Below, piece after piece: positions 32,402-41,500 of a DNA stretch of 64,000 bases. The position numbers were made by a program, and so were the translations under genes. This stretch comes from Bacteroidota bacterium. Its GTDB lineage: Bacteria > Bacteroidota > Bacteroidia > Sphingobacteriales > Sphingobacteriaceae. The DNA is taken from NCBI GenBank assembly GCA_018266915.1, contig JAFDZM010000045.1:124001-188000 (forward strand). Reading direction: 5' to 3'. How positions within the stretch are numbered: the stretch's first letter is position 1; every line of letters begins with the position of its first letter. Below the pieces are notes generated by a model. That model saw only the letters and a list, made by a program, of their open reading frames with translations. It searched no databases and was not told where the DNA came from.

Positions 32402-34243
32402 TCACTTCACCACCGGCAAACTAATACACGATGCCGCCCCTGCAGTATGATAGATCATCTCCGTTGCCTTCTGATAATCAGCTGCTGTTGCCTTAAAAAT
32501 ATTCGGCACATATTTCTGCGGATTGCGGTCGATGATGGGGAACCAGGTACTTTGCACCTGCACCATGATGCGGTGGCCTTTCTTAAATACATGGTCAACG
32601 CCATGCAGGTCGATGGTATATAATTCCTCCTTATTCGGCGTCATTGGCTCGGGCTTTTCAAAACTCTTTCTGAACCTACCCCGGAATACATCATCCGCTA
32701 TCATCAATTCGTAGCCAGACATTTTAAGTTCTTTTTTATATTCCTGTGGGTATACGTCGATCAGCTTTACTATCCAGTCTGCATCCGTGCCGGTAGTTGC
32801 AGCAAATAGTTTAGCCAATGGGTTTCCGGTTACGGTAATATCTTCCGTCAACGTATCGGTTTCCCAACTCAGCACATCCGGGCGGTTCTGCACAAAACGC
32901 TGATCTTCGGTCAGCCATGGATACCAGCGCGATCCCGGCCCGTAAGTTTCTTCAACCGGTCTTGCCCGGTATGGAACCGGTTTAGCCGGATCAGATACAT
33001 AGCTATCAAACTTGGTTTCTGTTGATGATGGAGCATCAAATGATAATTTACCATTTGCATGCAGGTAAATATTTTTATTGGTCGCTTCTTTTGGTGGCCA
33101 TGCAGTATAGTTCTTCCACTGGTTCGAGCCTGTTTGAAAGCTGATAACCTCGGCAAATTTACCATCGCCTTTTCCTTTCAGGTACCAGGCAAACCATTTG
33201 GCCTGTATCTCTTTCCTGAAATAGACAGCTGTTTCCTGGTCGTCAAATTTTATATTGCCCAGACTTTTGCCTGTACCCCCTGCCCAGCCACCGTGATTCC
33301 ACGGACCCATCACAATAAAATTCTTATGATTCTTATCATGTTTTTCCAACACCTTATAAGCATCCTGCGGACCCACCATATCTTCCTGGTCCCACCAGCC
33401 ACTTACGTGCTGTGTGGCTATTCTTGGCGTATCTAAGCGATAGGCCAATGATAGTTTCTTCCAGAACTCATCATAGTTCGGGTGTTCAATAAAATTATTC
33501 CACGTTGGCAATGTGCCACGCGCATATTTTTTATTGATGTTGGAGAGCGGGCCAAGTTTCAGGTACCAGTCGTAGGTATCATACTCACCAAAATTATAAA
33601 GCGAATCGGTTTTAGCAGCCTCCGTCAGCACTGAATATTCAAAGCCATAACTCAATCGGAATGCGCCATTATGATGAAAATCATCGTTCATAAACATATC
33701 CGACGGTGTAGCCTGTTCCGAAACAGCTACCATAGCCGGATGTGGATCAGTAGCGGCAATAATGGTTGTCCAGCCATCATAGGAGATGCCGTACATACCT
33801 GCTTTACCGTTATTATCGGGAATGTTTTTAAGCAGCCAGTCGATGGTGTCATAGGTATCGCTGCTTTCGTCAATCGCTTTCGGATCCTTTTTATCACGGC
33901 TGAAGCGCTGCATTTTGAAAGTACCTTCTGATAAATATCTTCCCCTGATATCCTGGAAAACGAAAATATATCCGTCTTCGGCCATGTCCCTTATATAACC
34001 CTGTCTTTCCGGACTTGGATAACCCTTTACACCGTATGGCGTCCGCAGCATCAGGAAGGGCAGCTTTTCTTTCTGATCCTTCGGTGTGTAGATCACTGTA
34101 AACAGCTTCACCCCATCCCGCATTGGGATCATCACTTCCTGGCGGTTATATTTATCGTCAGGTTTGGTTTGTTGTGCGGATGATGCAGATGGATTGAAAA
34201 GTATAATGACCAGGACTACAAAACAGGAAAGGATTGTTTTCAT
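32402..34243 (-). CDS. Secreted CocE/NonD-family hydrolase
   Basis: 613 residues from the ATG at 34243, giving the signal MKTILSCFVVLVIILFNPSASSAQ. The N-terminal alpha/beta-hydrolase domain has RDGVKLFTVIYTP near 35, FVFQDIRGRYLSEGTF near 90 and nucleophile motif GMYGISYDGWTT, as in cocaine esterase and X-Pro dipeptidyl peptidase (S15). MGPWNHGGWAGG carries the catalytic His. The C-terminal jelly-roll is present from about residue 400 to the end. Periplasmic ester or peptide hydrolysis is likely; the exact substrate is not readable. Confidence 0.92.
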   Translation of the reverse strand: MKTILSCFVVLVIILFNPSASSAQQTKPDDKYNRQEVMIPMRDGVKLFTVIYTPKDQKEKLPFLMLRTPYGVKGYPSPERQGYIRDMAEDGYIFVFQDIRGRYLSEGTFKMQRFSRDKKDPKAIDESSDTYDTIDWLLKNIPDNNGKAGMYGISYDGWTTIIAATDPHPAMVAVSEQATPSDMFMNDDFHHNGAFRLSYGFEYSVLTEAAKTDSLYNFGEYDTYDWYLKLGPLSNINKKYARGTLPTWNNFIEHPNYDEFWKKLSLAYRLDTPRIATQHVSGWWDQEDMVGPQDAYKVLEKHDKNHKNFIVMGPWNHGGWAGGTGKSLGNIKFDDQETAVYFRKEIQAKWFAWYLKGKGDGKFAEVISFQTGSNQWKNYTAWPPKEATNKNIYLHANGKLSFDAPSSTETKFDSYVSDPAKPVPYRARPVEETYGPGSRWYPWLTEDQRFVQNRPDVLSWETDTLTEDITVTGNPLAKLFAATTGTDADWIVKLIDVYPQEYKKELKMSGYELMIADDVFRGRFRKSFEKPEPMTPNKEELYTIDLHGVDHVFKKGHRIMVQVQSTWFPIIDRNPQKYVPNIFKATAADYQKATEMIYHTAGAASCISLPVVK

Positions 34244-34334
34244 GACAATGGTGTTTGAAGGCATTGCATTAAATATAGCAATACTCCAACGCATTATGGA
34301 ATTAAAAAACTATTCTTGCTTTTCAAAAAAACCA

Positions 34335-35273: not shown

Positions 35274-35966
35274 TCACCCTTCGTAAACAAACTTATACCC
35301 TATACCCCTTACGGTTTGCAGGTAAGTTGGCGAATCAGGGTTGTTTTCGATCTTTTTACGCAGGCGCACAATGTGCATATCCAGCGTGCGGGTATTTACA
35401 TCGGCGTTGTAACCCCAAACTTCCATCATCAGCTCTTCACGGTTGATCACCTTATTTTTATTCTTGAGGAAGTAGAGTAATATGCGGTTTTCCAAAATGG
35501 TTAACTCCACCTTACGGCCATCCCGTATCAGCAGGTGCGTATTAGGGTGATGCTCCATATTGGCGAACTTATATGCTTCAGGCTTTTCACTGTTCAGCGA
35601 GAATTTGATTTTATTGTCGATCAGCGCCACCAATACATCCATATTAAATGGCTTGGTAATGTAATCCGAAACGCCAAAGTTGTAAGCTTCGATCTTGTCT
35701 ACATCCTGTGCCTTAGCCGTCATCATGATCACCAATTTATCAAAGCCTTGTTCTCTTACAGCACTACATACCTCACCGCCTTGTTTGCCGGGCAGCATCC
35801 AGTCCAACAACACAATGTGCGGCTGCTCTTCCAGTATCATTGTCTCGGCATCATCGCCGTTATCAGCTTCAAGCACTTTGTAGCCTTCCGATTGCAAACG
35901 CTCGGCTACCAGAAAACGCAGGTTTTCATCATCTTCAACCAGCGCTATTTTTATTTCTTTTTCCAT
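35274..35966 (-). CDS. OmpR-family response regulator (RprY-like)
   Basis: 230 residues. The receiver domain has the acidic pair Glu11-Asp12, the phosphorylated Asp55 (IVLLDWMLPG), the Thr/Ala switch near 83 and Lys in YITKPFN near 105. The C-terminal winged helix (about 130-228) ends in LQTVRGIGYKFVYEG, the OmpR/PhoB signature. Its histidine kinase gene is 16 bases upstream on the same strand. Size and pairing match the Bacteroides RprXY system, though the inducing signal is unknown. Confidence 0.93.
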   Translation of the reverse strand: MEKEIKIALVEDDENLRFLVAERLQSEGYKVLEADNGDDAETMILEEQPHIVLLDWMLPGKQGGEVCSAVREQGFDKLVIMMTAKAQDVDKIEAYNFGVSDYITKPFNMDVLVALIDNKIKFSLNSEKPEAYKFANMEHHPNTHLLIRDGRKVELTILENRILLYFLKNKNKVINREELMMEVWGYNADVNTRTLDMHIVRLRKKIENNPDSPTYLQTVRGIGYKFVYEG

Positions 35967-35982
35967 AATTCAATTTTGATCA

Positions 35983-37629
35983 TTATTCGGCACTTACATA
36001 AGGCAGCGTGACAATAAATTCCGAACCTTCATTCACTTTTGAATTTACTGTTATTTCTCCGTTCATAAAATTAACCAGTTCCTTACAGAATGCCAAACCC
36101 AGCCCCACGCTTCCATCCTGGTTATATTGATTTTCTATCCTGTAAAATTTCTTAAATATATTTTCCATCTCCTCGCGGGCTATCCCGATGCCTTTATCCT
36201 TAAATGAGAAGAGGATATTGTTCCGTTTCCCCTGGGCAATTTTAATATGCATCTCCCTCTGCCGGGGATTGGAATATTTGTAAGCATTTTCCATAAGATT
36301 CTGAAACACACTACCCAGCAACACCGGATCGGTATAAAAGTTTGTAACCTTATCAATTTTATAATCCAGCTTAAAATCAGGGTATTTTATCCGGAAGGTA
36401 TCTATATATCCTTTTGTGAAATCTTCCAGGTTTACCTCTTCTCTTTTAATGCTTATAGACTTATTCTCAATCTGAGTGAACGATAGCAATTTGGTCATCA
36501 GGTCGTTCAGCTTGTCGGCTTCTTCATCCAATATTTTACCGTAATGCTTGAGCTGCCGTTCGCTCAGGTTACTGTCGCCGCGCAGGTTTGAGCCGGCAAT
36601 TTTTATTACGCTGATGGGTGTTTTAAACTCATGTGTCAGGTTATTGATGAAATCATACTGCAGCTTGAACAGCTTCATATTCACATTCAGGTTCCGATAG
36701 ATCAGCCAGCCTATCAAAACCAGGAAAATATAGATCAGCAATACCATCGCAGCAATCGGCATAAACCGGCGGTTGGTTTCTGCAGTCAGGTAATCCAACG
36801 GAGAACTGAAGTATAATTTATAATCTGCAAATCCCCCCGTAAGAGGCACTTCTGTGGTGATTTTGTTCACCGAGTTATCCAGCGGATCATACACTACTGG
36901 CCGCAGGTAGATGTTTTTATATAGCTCGGGATGCGTATTTACCACCTTGAGTGCATGCTGGTTCAAAATGAACGTAAGCATGTTTTGCTTATATTCAGAT
37001 GGTTGGGCTACTCCTTTTTGTATCTCGCGATAACGTTTAACTTCTTCGCGACGCGGAATATTGAGGTAAGTTATTTTCTCCGGCTGTATGTCGTAAAATG
37101 TCCTGAACTTTTCGTCCTGGGTAGGCTCTCTCGATGTATCCGCAAAGGCAACAAAACTGTTCAGCTTTGCCGACATGGATGTAAAATCAATATGGCTTTC
37201 AGGTATCGGCTTCTTTATACCGGCCATAGTTTGGTCTTTTCGTCGCCAATATTCGTATATGGAATTTATATTCACACCCAAACCTTTCTGAGGCGGGGTG
37301 CTGCTACCAATGCTGACATCATAAAATATAATGCGGCGCACAAAAGGATAATCGCTGAAAACTGTTCCTGAGTACTTAGCCGCCGATGTAGAATCCAGGT
37401 AGCCCTGGTAATAAGTGATTTCGGGTATACGATTTGAGAAGAAGTCGTTATAAGGCTTCATCGTCTGCTCCAATACGTCTATCTTTTTTGATGAAAACTC
37501 ATTTTCAACGTAGGTCGAAGTAAGCCCGTAGGCAATAAAAAGCGCGACAATAAATGTTGCCGATATCAGTATCAGGAAGGCAATAATTAATGAGAAGTTT
37601 TTCCGGTAAATACTCTGCTGCGCGGCCAT
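35983..37629 (-). CDS. Sensor histidine kinase (RprX-like)
   Basis: 548 residues. One membrane helix near 13-35 and another near 287-308 enclose a periplasmic sensor region of about 250 residues with no recognised fold. The phosphoacceptor is His333 in NNLTHEFKTPISVIK. The catalytic domain has the N box (NLMENAYKYSNP), G1 (DKGIGIA), F box and G2 (GLGLAFCKELV). No HAMP domain is evident. It is co-transcribed with the response regulator that follows. Confidence 0.93.
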   Translation of the reverse strand: MAAQQSIYRKNFSLIIAFLILISATFIVALFIAYGLTSTYVENEFSSKKIDVLEQTMKPYNDFFSNRIPEITYYQGYLDSTSAAKYSGTVFSDYPFVRRIIFYDVSIGSSTPPQKGLGVNINSIYEYWRRKDQTMAGIKKPIPESHIDFTSMSAKLNSFVAFADTSREPTQDEKFRTFYDIQPEKITYLNIPRREEVKRYREIQKGVAQPSEYKQNMLTFILNQHALKVVNTHPELYKNIYLRPVVYDPLDNSVNKITTEVPLTGGFADYKLYFSSPLDYLTAETNRRFMPIAAMVLLIYIFLVLIGWLIYRNLNVNMKLFKLQYDFINNLTHEFKTPISVIKIAGSNLRGDSNLSERQLKHYGKILDEEADKLNDLMTKLLSFTQIENKSISIKREEVNLEDFTKGYIDTFRIKYPDFKLDYKIDKVTNFYTDPVLLGSVFQNLMENAYKYSNPRQREMHIKIAQGKRNNILFSFKDKGIGIAREEMENIFKKFYRIENQYNQDGSVGLGLAFCKELVNFMNGEITVNSKVNEGSEFIVTLPYVSAE

Positions 37630-37640
37630 TATAAACGTAT

Positions 37641-39539
37641 TTAGTCCCTTACATGCATATTAGCATCCAGAAACTTTTCTATTTCAGTATACATTTCCAT
37701 ACGGTTACGTTCATTTCTGAAAGGTTTACGTTCATTTGATTTCAGGAAATAGGTGACACTTACCCCTTGTTTTTTCAACTCGCGGACAAACTGGTTCATT
37801 TCGCTTATGTTCGCAGATTCATCCTTAGCCCCCTGGAAAATCAATAAAGGCGCCTTAATTTTATCCGTATGGAAAACGGGAGAGATCGCCCTTAATTGTT
37901 CTGCATCCGTTTCAGGGTTGCCTATCATCTCATACATCATCTGTAACCGTGGTTTTACATAAGGCGGAACATCTTTTATATAAGTAAAAAAGTTGATCAA
38001 CCCGTACTGCACTACTGCACAGTTATATAGCTCGTGATGATTGGCAACGCCATACAATGCACAAAAACCACCAAAACCACCACCCAGAATAGCTATCTTT
38101 TTAGGATCAGCAGTACCCCGTTTGATCAGCCAGTTAACACCATCTGTTATATCATCCTGCATTTTTGCGCCGGCCTGTTTAAAGCCTGCGCTGAAAAAAT
38201 TCTTTCCGTATCCGGTAGAGCCCCTATAATTTATCTGGAATACAGCATATCCCCTGTTGGCCAGGAATTGCACTTCATCGCTGTATCTCCAGTTATCCCG
38301 GTTGCGCCACGGCCCGTCATGCGGTAATACCACTACCGGCAAATCGGTAGTCTTAGCTTTTTTTGGCAAGGTAAGATAACCATTAATCTCCAACCCGTCC
38401 CTCGATTTAAAACTGACAGGCTCCATCGTGCAAAGATCTTCCGGTTTGATGGATGAATTGATATTCCCCAGGCTGGTTATTTTACCATTATTCCGCTGGT
38501 ACAGGTAATACGTACCAGGATTCCGGTCGGTATAGCTAAAGAAGATGAATTTATTTTCGGCACTATCCCGGCTAATGATATCTATTTGCGTACCATGCAG
38601 AAATTGGGACAATGTATCGTAAATAAGTTTAATCCCAGGGTCTATAAAATGTTTTTTAGGCTTCGCTTCCTCGCAAGTTGCAGTTTCCAACTGGTGCTGG
38701 TCTCTTGAGTAGTCAACTCTTCCTATATCGGTTTTATCACATGAAAATACCACCCTTTGCTCCTTACCCGTTTCCGCGTCAATTTCTACCAGTGCCGATT
38801 TATCACGTTCTACATTCGACAATGCATAAAAGTTGCATTTTTCACCTGTAAAAGCTATCGGCTGCACTCTGTTCACAAAGTTATTTTTGATGATGGGCTT
38901 AAAGGGCATATTGTCATTTGCCCGGTACAGGATGGTTTCGTCCACCCCATCCGACGATTTTACGAGTCGTATTTTACCGTCATCGTCGGGGAACCACTCC
39001 GTTATATTACCGGGATTGATCAAATAAGGCTTTAGCTGCCCGGTTTTTACGTTTAGTTGATAGATATCAAAATTTGCCGGGTCACGTTTATTCATGCTGA
39101 TGGTCACCACGTCGGGTTCGCCCTTATTGCGGTTATTCAGTATATTTATACGCCCCTGATCCAGTGTCAATATTTCACGCAATTTAAGCTCGGGAACATC
39201 TATTGCGTACATTTTATACTGATCAAGCGAAATCACATCCTGTATGATAACGAGCTGGTTATTGTAGGTCCAGGAGTAATTGCGTACGGAGTAATCATCA
39301 AAAGAAGTAGCCATTTCCTCCTTCCCGTTATCCAGCGATTTGATGAAAAGGTTTTGGCGTCCCTTATAGGGTTTCAGATAAGAAACATACTTTCCATCAG
39401 GCGATAGCCTGAAGAAACTCTTCTCAGCAGTTTTGAAAAAATCGCTAATAGGTATTTGCTTTATATGCTCTTCCTTACACGTTGCAAGTAAGCATATAAT
39501 TAAAATGGACAATAAAATTCGCAGCCTGGTCAGCATCAT
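37641..39539 (-). CDS. S9-family alpha/beta hydrolase homologue lacking catalytic Ser and His
   Basis: About 632 residues; start ATG at 39539 (39536 is also possible) gives a lipoprotein-like signal ending LLATC. The N-terminal two-thirds is a beta-propeller-like region; the C-terminal hydrolase domain has HDGPWRNRDNW, FQINYRGSTGYGKNF and DDITDGVNWL, typical of prolyl oligopeptidase/S9C enzymes. The nucleophile elbow, normally G-G-S-Y-G-G, reads GGGFGG with Gly488 in the Ser place. The Asp remains (QGAKDES). The His, normally in GHGFR, is Lys605 in RKPFR. With two of three triad residues gone it is probably not a peptidase; a binding or regulatory role is possible. It lies 12 bases upstream of the kinase gene, in the same direction. 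Confidence 0.85.
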   Translation of the reverse strand: MMLTRLRILLSILIICLLATCKEEHIKQIPISDFFKTAEKSFFRLSPDGKYVSYLKPYKGRQNLFIKSLDNGKEEMATSFDDYSVRNYSWTYNNQLVIIQDVISLDQYKMYAIDVPELKLREILTLDQGRINILNNRNKGEPDVVTISMNKRDPANFDIYQLNVKTGQLKPYLINPGNITEWFPDDDGKIRLVKSSDGVDETILYRANDNMPFKPIIKNNFVNRVQPIAFTGEKCNFYALSNVERDKSALVEIDAETGKEQRVVFSCDKTDIGRVDYSRDQHQLETATCEEAKPKKHFIDPGIKLIYDTLSQFLHGTQIDIISRDSAENKFIFFSYTDRNPGTYYLYQRNNGKITSLGNINSSIKPEDLCTMEPVSFKSRDGLEINGYLTLPKKAKTTDLPVVVLPHDGPWRNRDNWRYSDEVQFLANRGYAVFQINYRGSTGYGKNFFSAGFKQAGAKMQDDITDGVNWLIKRGTADPKKIAILGGGFGGFCALYGVANHHELYNCAVVQYGLINFFTYIKDVPPYVKPRLQMMYEMIGNPETDAEQLRAISPVFHTDKIKAPLLIFQGAKDESANISEMNQFVRELKKQGVSVTYFLKSNERKPFRNERNRMEMYTEIEKFLDANMHVRD

Positions 39540-39691
39540 CAACAAATAGTTCGGAATCCTATATTAGGTTAAACTTAGTTAAATTACTTATTCCTTACAA
39601 AATGTCACTACAATTTTACCGCATTCCGTCGTTATAGTAAGTAGCCTTCCGGATACAATAATATTGGCTTTATTTGATTATTTTTGATTTA

Positions 39692-41500
39692 ATGAAGAGG
39701 ATTTTCGTTATATTTTTCTTTTTGATTTGTTGCGGAGCGATAGCTTTTGGGCAAGGTAACGATCTGCAGTTGGCACGGCAATATTCAGCTAATGGCGAAC
39801 CTCAAAAAGCTTTGGATATTTACCAAAAGCTATATAAACAGGATAACGATGCATACTTTATTTATTACCTGAATGGTTTATTAAGCCTGAAGAAGTTTGA
39901 CGAGGCGGAGTCTGTTTCAAAGAAAATGCTTCGCAAGCACCCCACTGAATATCAGTACAGCATATGGCTTGGTCGTGTGTATACGCAAAAAGGAGATACT
40001 GATAAAGCAAATGCCATTTATGACGACCTGATCAAAAATTTGCCTCCCGATGCAGGCGCCATTACCAACCTTGCCACACAATTTTACCAGGCCGAAAATG
40101 TTGACTATGCCATCAAAATATTTCTGCAGGGCCGCAAGTTATTACATAATGATAACCTGTATGCCTTTGAGCTGATCAATCTATACCGTTTTAAAAGAGA
40201 CAAGGCAGCACTTACTGAAGAGTACCTGAGCTTCTTGCCGACTAACCCCGCGTTTATTACACAGGCAGAAAATACGCTTTCATCGGTATACGAGGGTGAG
40301 GATGACTATAATATGCTTAAAGTTGCCTTATTTAAACGTATCCAGAAAGATCCACAGCAGATAGTTTATATCAATCTGCTTACCTGGCAATTTTTGCAGC
40401 AAAAGGAATTTGATCAGGCTTTAGACCAGGCGCTGGCATTGAGCCGGAGGCAAAACGACGATGGCAACAGCATTTTTGAATTATGTCAAACGCTTATCTC
40501 CAACGAGGCTTACGATGCTGCCATCCGCGGTTATCAATACATCATTAGCAAAGGGCGTGACAACCCGCTTTATATTCCAGCAAAAATTGAGCAGATCAAC
40601 ACTAAAAACTTATTGGTTACAGCCGGCAAATACACGCAGGCTGATCTATTGGGCCTGGAGAAAGATTACCTTGATTTGATAGGGGAATTCGGCAAGAACA
40701 GCAATACGGCTTTCGCCATGCAAAAACTGGCCAACCTGGAAGCCTTTAAATTGCACAAGCTGGATGATGCCCAAAAGCTGCTTGAAGAAACCATAAAAAT
40801 ACCCGGATTGCGGGCCAATCTGCTGAATAGCTGTAAGCTTGACCTGGGTGATGTTTACCTGATGAACAAGCAGCAATGGGAAGCCACATTGCAATACAGC
40901 CAGGTGGAAACCGCCTACCCGAATACTTCCATCGGCCAGGATGCAAAATTCCGCAATGCGAAACTGGCTTATTATACAGGTGACCTTGATTTTGCAAAAA
41001 GAGAACTGGATGTATTGAAGGCAGCCACCTCACAGCTCATAGCCAATGACGCGCTAAACTTATCGCTTCTTATCACCGATAATCTATTCGCTGATACGTC
41101 AGGCAATGCCCTAAAAATGTACGCCCGCGCTGATCTGCAGATATTTGCCGAACAGCCAGAAAAAGCTGTCACAATTCTGGACAGCATCGATGTAAAGTAT
41201 CCGGGCAATAATCTTAGTGATGATATCCTGATGGCTAAAGCACGTATACTGATCCAGCAGAAAAACTTTAATGATGCTGTTGCTCCTCTAAAAAAGATCG
41301 TGGATGAGCACCCCAATAACCTCTGGGCCGATGATGCTGTTTTTATGCTTGGTGACCTCTATGAAAACCACCTGAATAACAAAGAGCAGGCAAAAAGCTT
41401 TTACCAAAAAGTAATCACCGATTATCCCGGCAGCTTGTGGATCAATGAGGCCAGGAAACGGTTCAGGCTATTAAGGGGCGATAAACCGGACGCATCTTGA
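39692..41500 (+). CDS. Secreted TPR-repeat protein
   Basis: 602 residues from the ATG at 39692, with Sec signal MKRIFVIFFFLICCGAIAFGQ. The mature protein is almost entirely helical TPR repeats: QKALDIYQKLYKQ near 40, YQYSIWLGRVYTQKGDTDKA near 95 and a C-terminal group (QAKSFYQKVITDYPGSLWINEARKR) resembling YbgF/BamD-type repeats. It probably acts as a periplasmic scaffold; no specific complex can be assigned. A TATTTTTG box lies only six bases before the start and is therefore doubtful as its promoter. It is followed at its stop by a word array. Confidence 0.85.
   Translation: MKRIFVIFFFLICCGAIAFGQGNDLQLARQYSANGEPQKALDIYQKLYKQDNDAYFIYYLNGLLSLKKFDEAESVSKKMLRKHPTEYQYSIWLGRVYTQKGDTDKANAIYDDLIKNLPPDAGAITNLATQFYQAENVDYAIKIFLQGRKLLHNDNLYAFELINLYRFKRDKAALTEEYLSFLPTNPAFITQAENTLSSVYEGEDDYNMLKVALFKRIQKDPQQIVYINLLTWQFLQQKEFDQALDQALALSRRQNDDGNSIFELCQTLISNEAYDAAIRGYQYIISKGRDNPLYIPAKIEQINTKNLLVTAGKYTQADLLGLEKDYLDLIGEFGKNSNTAFAMQKLANLEAFKLHKLDDAQKLLEETIKIPGLRANLLNSCKLDLGDVYLMNKQQWEATLQYSQVETAYPNTSIGQDAKFRNAKLAYYTGDLDFAKRELDVLKAATSQLIANDALNLSLLITDNLFADTSGNALKMYARADLQIFAEQPEKAVTILDSIDVKYPGNNLSDDILMAKARILIQQKNFNDAVAPLKKIVDEHPNNLWADDAVFMLGDLYENHLNNKEQAKSFYQKVITDYPGSLWINEARKRFRLLRGDKPDAS

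Follow-up and report, generated by a model that had tools for sequence, protein, structure and literature searches.

The DNA considered here, which we will refer to as the window, is a stretch of 64,000 nucleotides from a genome of 5.17 Mb. On its minus strand, it contains an open reading frame for a protein of 632 aa, which starts with an ATG at 39539, terminates at 37641-37643 and is free of internal stop codons, as the first-pass annotation of this DNA had also found. A significant part of this protein (residues 419-630, in the numbering of the Pfam search, which is shifted by +2) is matched by the Pfam Peptidase_S9 family with an E value of 5.5e-39. The gene is followed by those for a histidine kinase and a response regulator, and the main features of this locus are summarized in Table 1. 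The ATG of the kinase gene is at 37629, 11 bp from the stop codon of the S9 gene; the strand and the order of these genes were as previously described, but not their spacing, which had been given as 12 bases.

Table 1. Predicted genes, domains and important residues at the S9/kinase locus (window coordinates).
Feature	Coordinates	Strand	Basis
S9-like pseudo-peptidase, predicted lipoprotein	37641..39539	-	ORF; Pfam PF00326; AlphaFold2 mean pLDDT 94.8; Foldseek 5l8s, TM 0.81
Cys21, predicted lipobox cysteine (LLATC)	39477..39479	-	Nearly invariant in alignment
Beta-propeller domain, residues about 31-360	38460..39449	-	AlphaFold2 secondary structure
Alpha/beta-hydrolase domain, residues about 372-630	37650..38426	-	Pfam and AlphaFold2
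Gly488, replacing the catalytic Ser	38076..38078	-	Ser in 61/61 outgroup sequences
Asp573, triad Asp still present	37821..37823	-	Asp in 139/144 dead copies
Lys605, replacing the catalytic His	37725..37727	-	His conserved in all 61 outgroup sequences
Membrane histidine kinase, 548 aa, HisKA and HATPase_c	35983..37629	-	Pfam; H-box HEFKTP invariant in 66 orthologues
Periplasmic sensor domain of the kinase, about residues 36-289	36763..37524	-	Flanked by two predicted membrane helices
Predicted phospho-acceptor of the kinase, His333	36631..36633	-	Invariant in kinase alignment (66 orthologues)
Response regulator of OmpR/PhoB type, 230 aa, with Asp55 as predicted acceptor	35274..35966	-	Response_reg and Trans_reg_C

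When compared with what is expected of an active S9 peptidase, the window protein retains the triad Asp (within the sequence FQGAKDES), but it lacks both the Ser of the GxSxGG motif and the catalytic His. Its nucleophile elbow reads ILGGGFGGFC, and the sequence SNERKPF is found where EGHGF is expected. These two replacements, their codon positions and the retention of the Asp had been recorded by the first-pass annotation exactly to the base. Equal losses are present in the orthologue from Mucilaginibacter sp. BT774, the nearest named relative in our scan (90% identity for the pseudo-peptidase), and throughout the genus the two sites are likewise altered, but to other residues; hence, chance or a sequencing error is excluded as their cause.

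The homology of this protein to the Peptidase family S9 is supported by its combination of a beta-propeller and an alpha/beta-hydrolase fold. An AlphaFold2 model based upon 111 aligned homologues was of high confidence (pTM 0.92), and a Foldseek search with this model identified 5l8s as the first match, followed by other S9 enzymes, due to which the S9 fold is predicted to be intact. The structure 5l8s, a cold-adapted acylaminoacyl peptidase, is also the best solved relative of the protein (full-length homology, E 5e-43). With the S9 acylaminoacyl/acyl-peptide peptidases (5l8s and its relatives) the window protein shares the two-domain fold, the RGSTGYG motif and the surroundings of the nucleophile elbow, but it differs from them in the absence of the triad Ser and His, in its predicted lipoprotein nature and in its coupling to a kinase. 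Its N-terminus reads as a lipoprotein signal, LLATC/KEE, where the lipobox was identified by eye. The protein had previously been called secreted; its export is indeed indicated, probably to the periplasm, but in view of the LLATC motif and its nearly invariant Cys21 it is better described as a putative exported lipoprotein. The sequence CKEE at this position differs in most orthologues, and the KEE, a candidate surface-export motif, is thus not conserved.

To the extent that genus and family assignments could be inferred from named records, matches to the S9 protein (E <= 1e-30) were present in 118/118 good Mucilaginibacter genomes and in 295 of the 300 good Sphingobacteriaceae genomes, the five exceptions being four genomes of the genus g9 and the genome G207. 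The gene order around the S9 gene, including a divergently transcribed TPR gene, an OmpA-like gene and others, was kept in the 18 long loci that were compared, which indicates that these S9 copies represent one ancestral locus rather than paralogues. The TPR-repeat gene (39674-41500 in the window) is a family-wide conserved neighbour that is retained even where the S9 gene has been lost. In all 170 family loci examined, the gene for this same kinase was found downstream of the S9 gene and on the same strand, with a median gap of 8 bp and gaps of less than 50 bp in 169 of them. The association with a histidine kinase/response regulator pair, first noted for the window alone, is thus conserved across the family. 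No match to the partner kinase was detected in the surrounding DNA examined for the outgroup S9 loci. In genus g14, an additional and distant S9 copy was noted whose triad is intact (L204, L205), and the DNA examined around it also gave no match to the partner kinase.

Whereas the S9 orthologue was not seen without the kinase in the loci examined, the kinase does occur without the S9 gene. In the four genomes of genus g9 (about 2 Mb each; L296, L297, L298, and L299), the TPR gene is followed by a short gap, the kinase and the regulator, and the S9 gene is cleanly deleted, with the kinase, its sensor domain and the regulator all retained. In two other loci (L201 and L202, from G264 and G249), the S9 copy is broken and contains internal stops, but the kinase gene next to it is open. 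The S9 gene is therefore not indispensable to the kinase/regulator pair, and this one-sided association in the loci examined fits an accessory input rather than an obligatory subunit.

The catalytic motifs of the kinase are invariant, and the two-component system is thus probably live. For its periplasmic sensor domain of roughly 250 residues, no Pfam match of note was obtained and profile searches detected no relative in the PDB, and the Foldseek matches to the kinase model were mainly to the cytoplasmic kinase core. Searches with both the single sequence and a profile found no match to this domain in about 237 sampled Bacteroidia genomes from outside the family, and a gene-order search for the S9/kinase pairing yielded matches only from the Sphingobacteriaceae. 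In the genomes sampled, the sensor domain thus appears to be restricted to this family.

The state of the catalytic triad was determined for 231 aligned homologues, comprised of 170 family loci, some of them near-identical and picked partly by their similarity to the query, and 61 sequences from outside the family. The Ser-Asp-His triad is present in 61/61 of the latter, and it is intact in 26 of the family copies and not in the other 144. Within Mucilaginibacter, every copy examined lacks the catalytic His and most also lack the Ser. The dead copies contain mostly Gly at the Ser site (115 copies; Arg in 17, Ser in 7, and a few others), Gly presumably being an easy replacement at the strained elbow position of the alpha/beta-hydrolase fold. 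At the His site 16 different residues are found, placing it at the 98th percentile of variability, and the Asp is kept in 139 of the 144. Among the 94 sites that are near-invariant in the outgroup and the intact family copies, retention in the dead copies is at least 90% for 72 sites and below 70% for only five, with Ser488 and His605 being the lowest two. The few Ser residues at the Ser site in Mucilaginibacter are encoded by AGC or AGT codons, one step from Gly, and are not accompanied by the His, a pattern that suggests drift or regain and not the survival of active enzymes.

A maximum-likelihood tree was constructed for 108 family and 12 outgroup sequences after removal of the catalytic columns, using a quick search without full bootstraps. 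On this tree, the triad state changes at least 11 times by Fitch parsimony, and 14 losses are required if regain is forbidden (Dollo); taken individually, the Ser site changes 13 times and the His site 10 times. When all of the dead copies were forced into one clade (49-row set), the cost was 1020 log-likelihood units (p-AU 1e-58). A single loss of the triad is thus rejected, and the loss has been repeated at least eleven times within the family. Outside of Mucilaginibacter, loss of the Ser with retention of the His is seen in at least five lineages of the tree (L143, L153, L157, L165/L042, and L200), whereas the opposite combination, Ser without His, was observed only within the Mucilaginibacter clade, which was dead already. 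Although these numbers are small, they suggest that the nucleophile is lost first.

Selective constraint on the dead copies is similar in strength to that on the intact copies and on the kinase. Between the window and BT774, the dN/dS value is 0.042 for the pseudo-peptidase (a rough value, as dS exceeds 1), 0.041 for the kinase and 0.010 for the regulator, and in other pairs it ranges from 0.016 to 0.091 for dead and from 0.038 to 0.087 for intact copies, with the more diverged pairs yielding no estimate due to saturated dS. Simple decay of the S9 gene is rejected by these values. The protein thus combines the loss of catalytic residues with a predicted fold that is kept and with purifying selection, the properties of a maintained pseudoenzyme, which is how the window copy had been interpreted earlier; the genus-wide loss of the catalytic residues at a dN/dS of about 0.04 bears out this view. 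Intact orthologues together with relaxed selection on the dead copies had been considered as contrary evidence. Intact family members do exist, but no relaxation is seen in the dead ones. Of the two features that were to be checked in a clade of close orthologues, purifying selection is observed, but fixation of the Gly and the Lys is not, as both of these positions vary among non-catalytic residues within the genus.

Based upon these results, the most likely role of the S9-like protein is that of a sensing partner and not that of an enzyme, and we assign a probability of about 0.6 to the proposal that this catalytically dead lipoprotein is an accessory or co-sensor dedicated to the downstream histidine kinase. 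The evolutionary pattern is solid and unusual; for the mechanism, we infer physical contact with the kinase, binding of a ligand and the direction of the effect. A dead S9-type (acylaminoacyl-peptidase-like) lipoprotein would be exported to the periplasm, where the cleft between its propeller and hydrolase domains would probably bind a ligand, either a peptide or some other envelope-derived molecule, or the protein might merely dock. The first-pass annotation had likewise suggested that it may sense or present a peptide for the kinase/regulator pair. It would then touch the periplasmic domain of the kinase and tune phosphorylation of the response regulator. A non-cleaving binder is made plausible by the conserved surroundings of the cleft and by the Ser-first order of losses, although an intact cleft is by itself no proof of binding. 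At the ancestral locus, the gene coupled to that of the kinase apparently encoded a peptidase that was still active, with cleavage becoming dispensable later in many lineages. More tentatively, and with somewhat less than even odds, a protein that formerly trimmed or degraded the ligand of the kinase may have been converted into a non-cleaving receptor for this ligand, in parallel in many lineages and with the nucleophile lost first. If this is true, the living intact and half-dead copies represent naturally occurring steps in the transition of an enzyme to a sensor.

The proximity of the S9 and kinase genes may reflect co-expression alone, and a shared operon is no proof of contact. Hence, it is conceivable, though rather unlikely, that the pseudo-peptidase is a structural protein or a chaperone/carrier of the envelope, sharing no more than a transcript with the kinase, and perhaps a target or stress-relief product of the system and not its input. 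The persistence of the kinase and regulator in genus g9 would accord with such a role, but the S9 orthologue was never found apart from the kinase in the 170 family loci and the sensor domain of this kinase is family-specific in the genomes sampled. A doubtful alternative is that the protein serves as an inactive partner of other proteases in the manner of DPP6/DPP10 or the iRhoms, by binding to or competing with S9 enzymes that are active, or with the substrates of these. Inactive DPP10 is among the S9 homologues that were matched, and the iRhom pseudoproteases are reported to regulate signalling. However, no close S9 paralogue was found in the window genome, where the other matches are distant hydrolases, and the coupling to the kinase is left unexplained. 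It is quite improbable that migrated or alternative catalytic residues confer some hydrolase activity. Some annotated pseudoenzymes have proved active, as is reported for USP53/54, and the cleft and Asp573 are retained in our protein, but in the Mucilaginibacter set no Ser, Thr, or His has become newly conserved, the only conserved Cys is that of the lipobox, and few positions of the protein are as variable as the His site. Lastly, that the gene is becoming a pseudogene under relaxed selection, as the few genomes with broken or missing copies (the g9 deletions and the fragmented copies in G264 and G249) might suggest, is scarcely credible and already contradicted for the window copy, given the low dN/dS values, the full-length frames in nearly all genomes and the presence of the gene throughout Mucilaginibacter.

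The closest working analogue of the proposed co-sensor is QseG, an outer-membrane lipoprotein of E. coli encoded by the qseEGF operon, which binds to and activates the kinase QseE via its periplasmic loop (PMC6075780). The QseE-QseG-QseF system resembles the present locus in combining a lipoprotein, a kinase and a regulator in one operon, the operon being predicted here from gene order and gaps, and in the periplasmic action upon a kinase, which is established for QseG and only proposed for the window protein; the likeness is thus functional, and no relationship in sequence or fold is claimed. Another parallel is provided by YycH/YycI, accessory proteins that act outside the cytoplasm to tune a kinase by stimulating WalK (PMC7355866). 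An S9 fold with a dead active site is also seen in human DPP6/DPP10 (PDB 4wjl), in which the active site was lost independently. The DPP6/DPP10 proteins, inactive S9 homologues that serve as binding partners, are single-pass membrane proteins of animals that act upon potassium channels. The YycH/YycI proteins, unlike the window protein, are membrane-anchored, belong to Gram-positive bacteria and lack the S9 fold.

Neither pseudoenzymes nor accessory proteins of sensor kinases are new, and prokaryotic homologues of serine proteases that lack catalytic activity have been counted in a previous survey, the relevant passages of which name no S9/kinase system of this kind (PMC2605481). In the open-licence literature that was searched, we found no report of this locus or of any two-component system associated with an S9 pseudo-peptidase. 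Beyond the single odd copy that was noted initially, the loss of the triad is family-wide and recurrent. With intact, Ser-only-lost and fully dead copies of one syntenic orthologue all lying next to the same kinase, it becomes testable how an enzyme turns into a signalling part, and a probable partner can be assigned to a near-universal Sphingobacteriaceae kinase whose sensor domain is undescribed. The annotation "S9 family peptidase" would be misleading for the majority of the copies examined. In addition to these genes, a CocE/NonD (S15-type) hydrolase, whose GISYDG elbow appears to be intact, is encoded near the regulator (32402-34294 in the window); it was not found in the DNA examined around the BT774 locus, and it is present in some other Mucilaginibacter loci.
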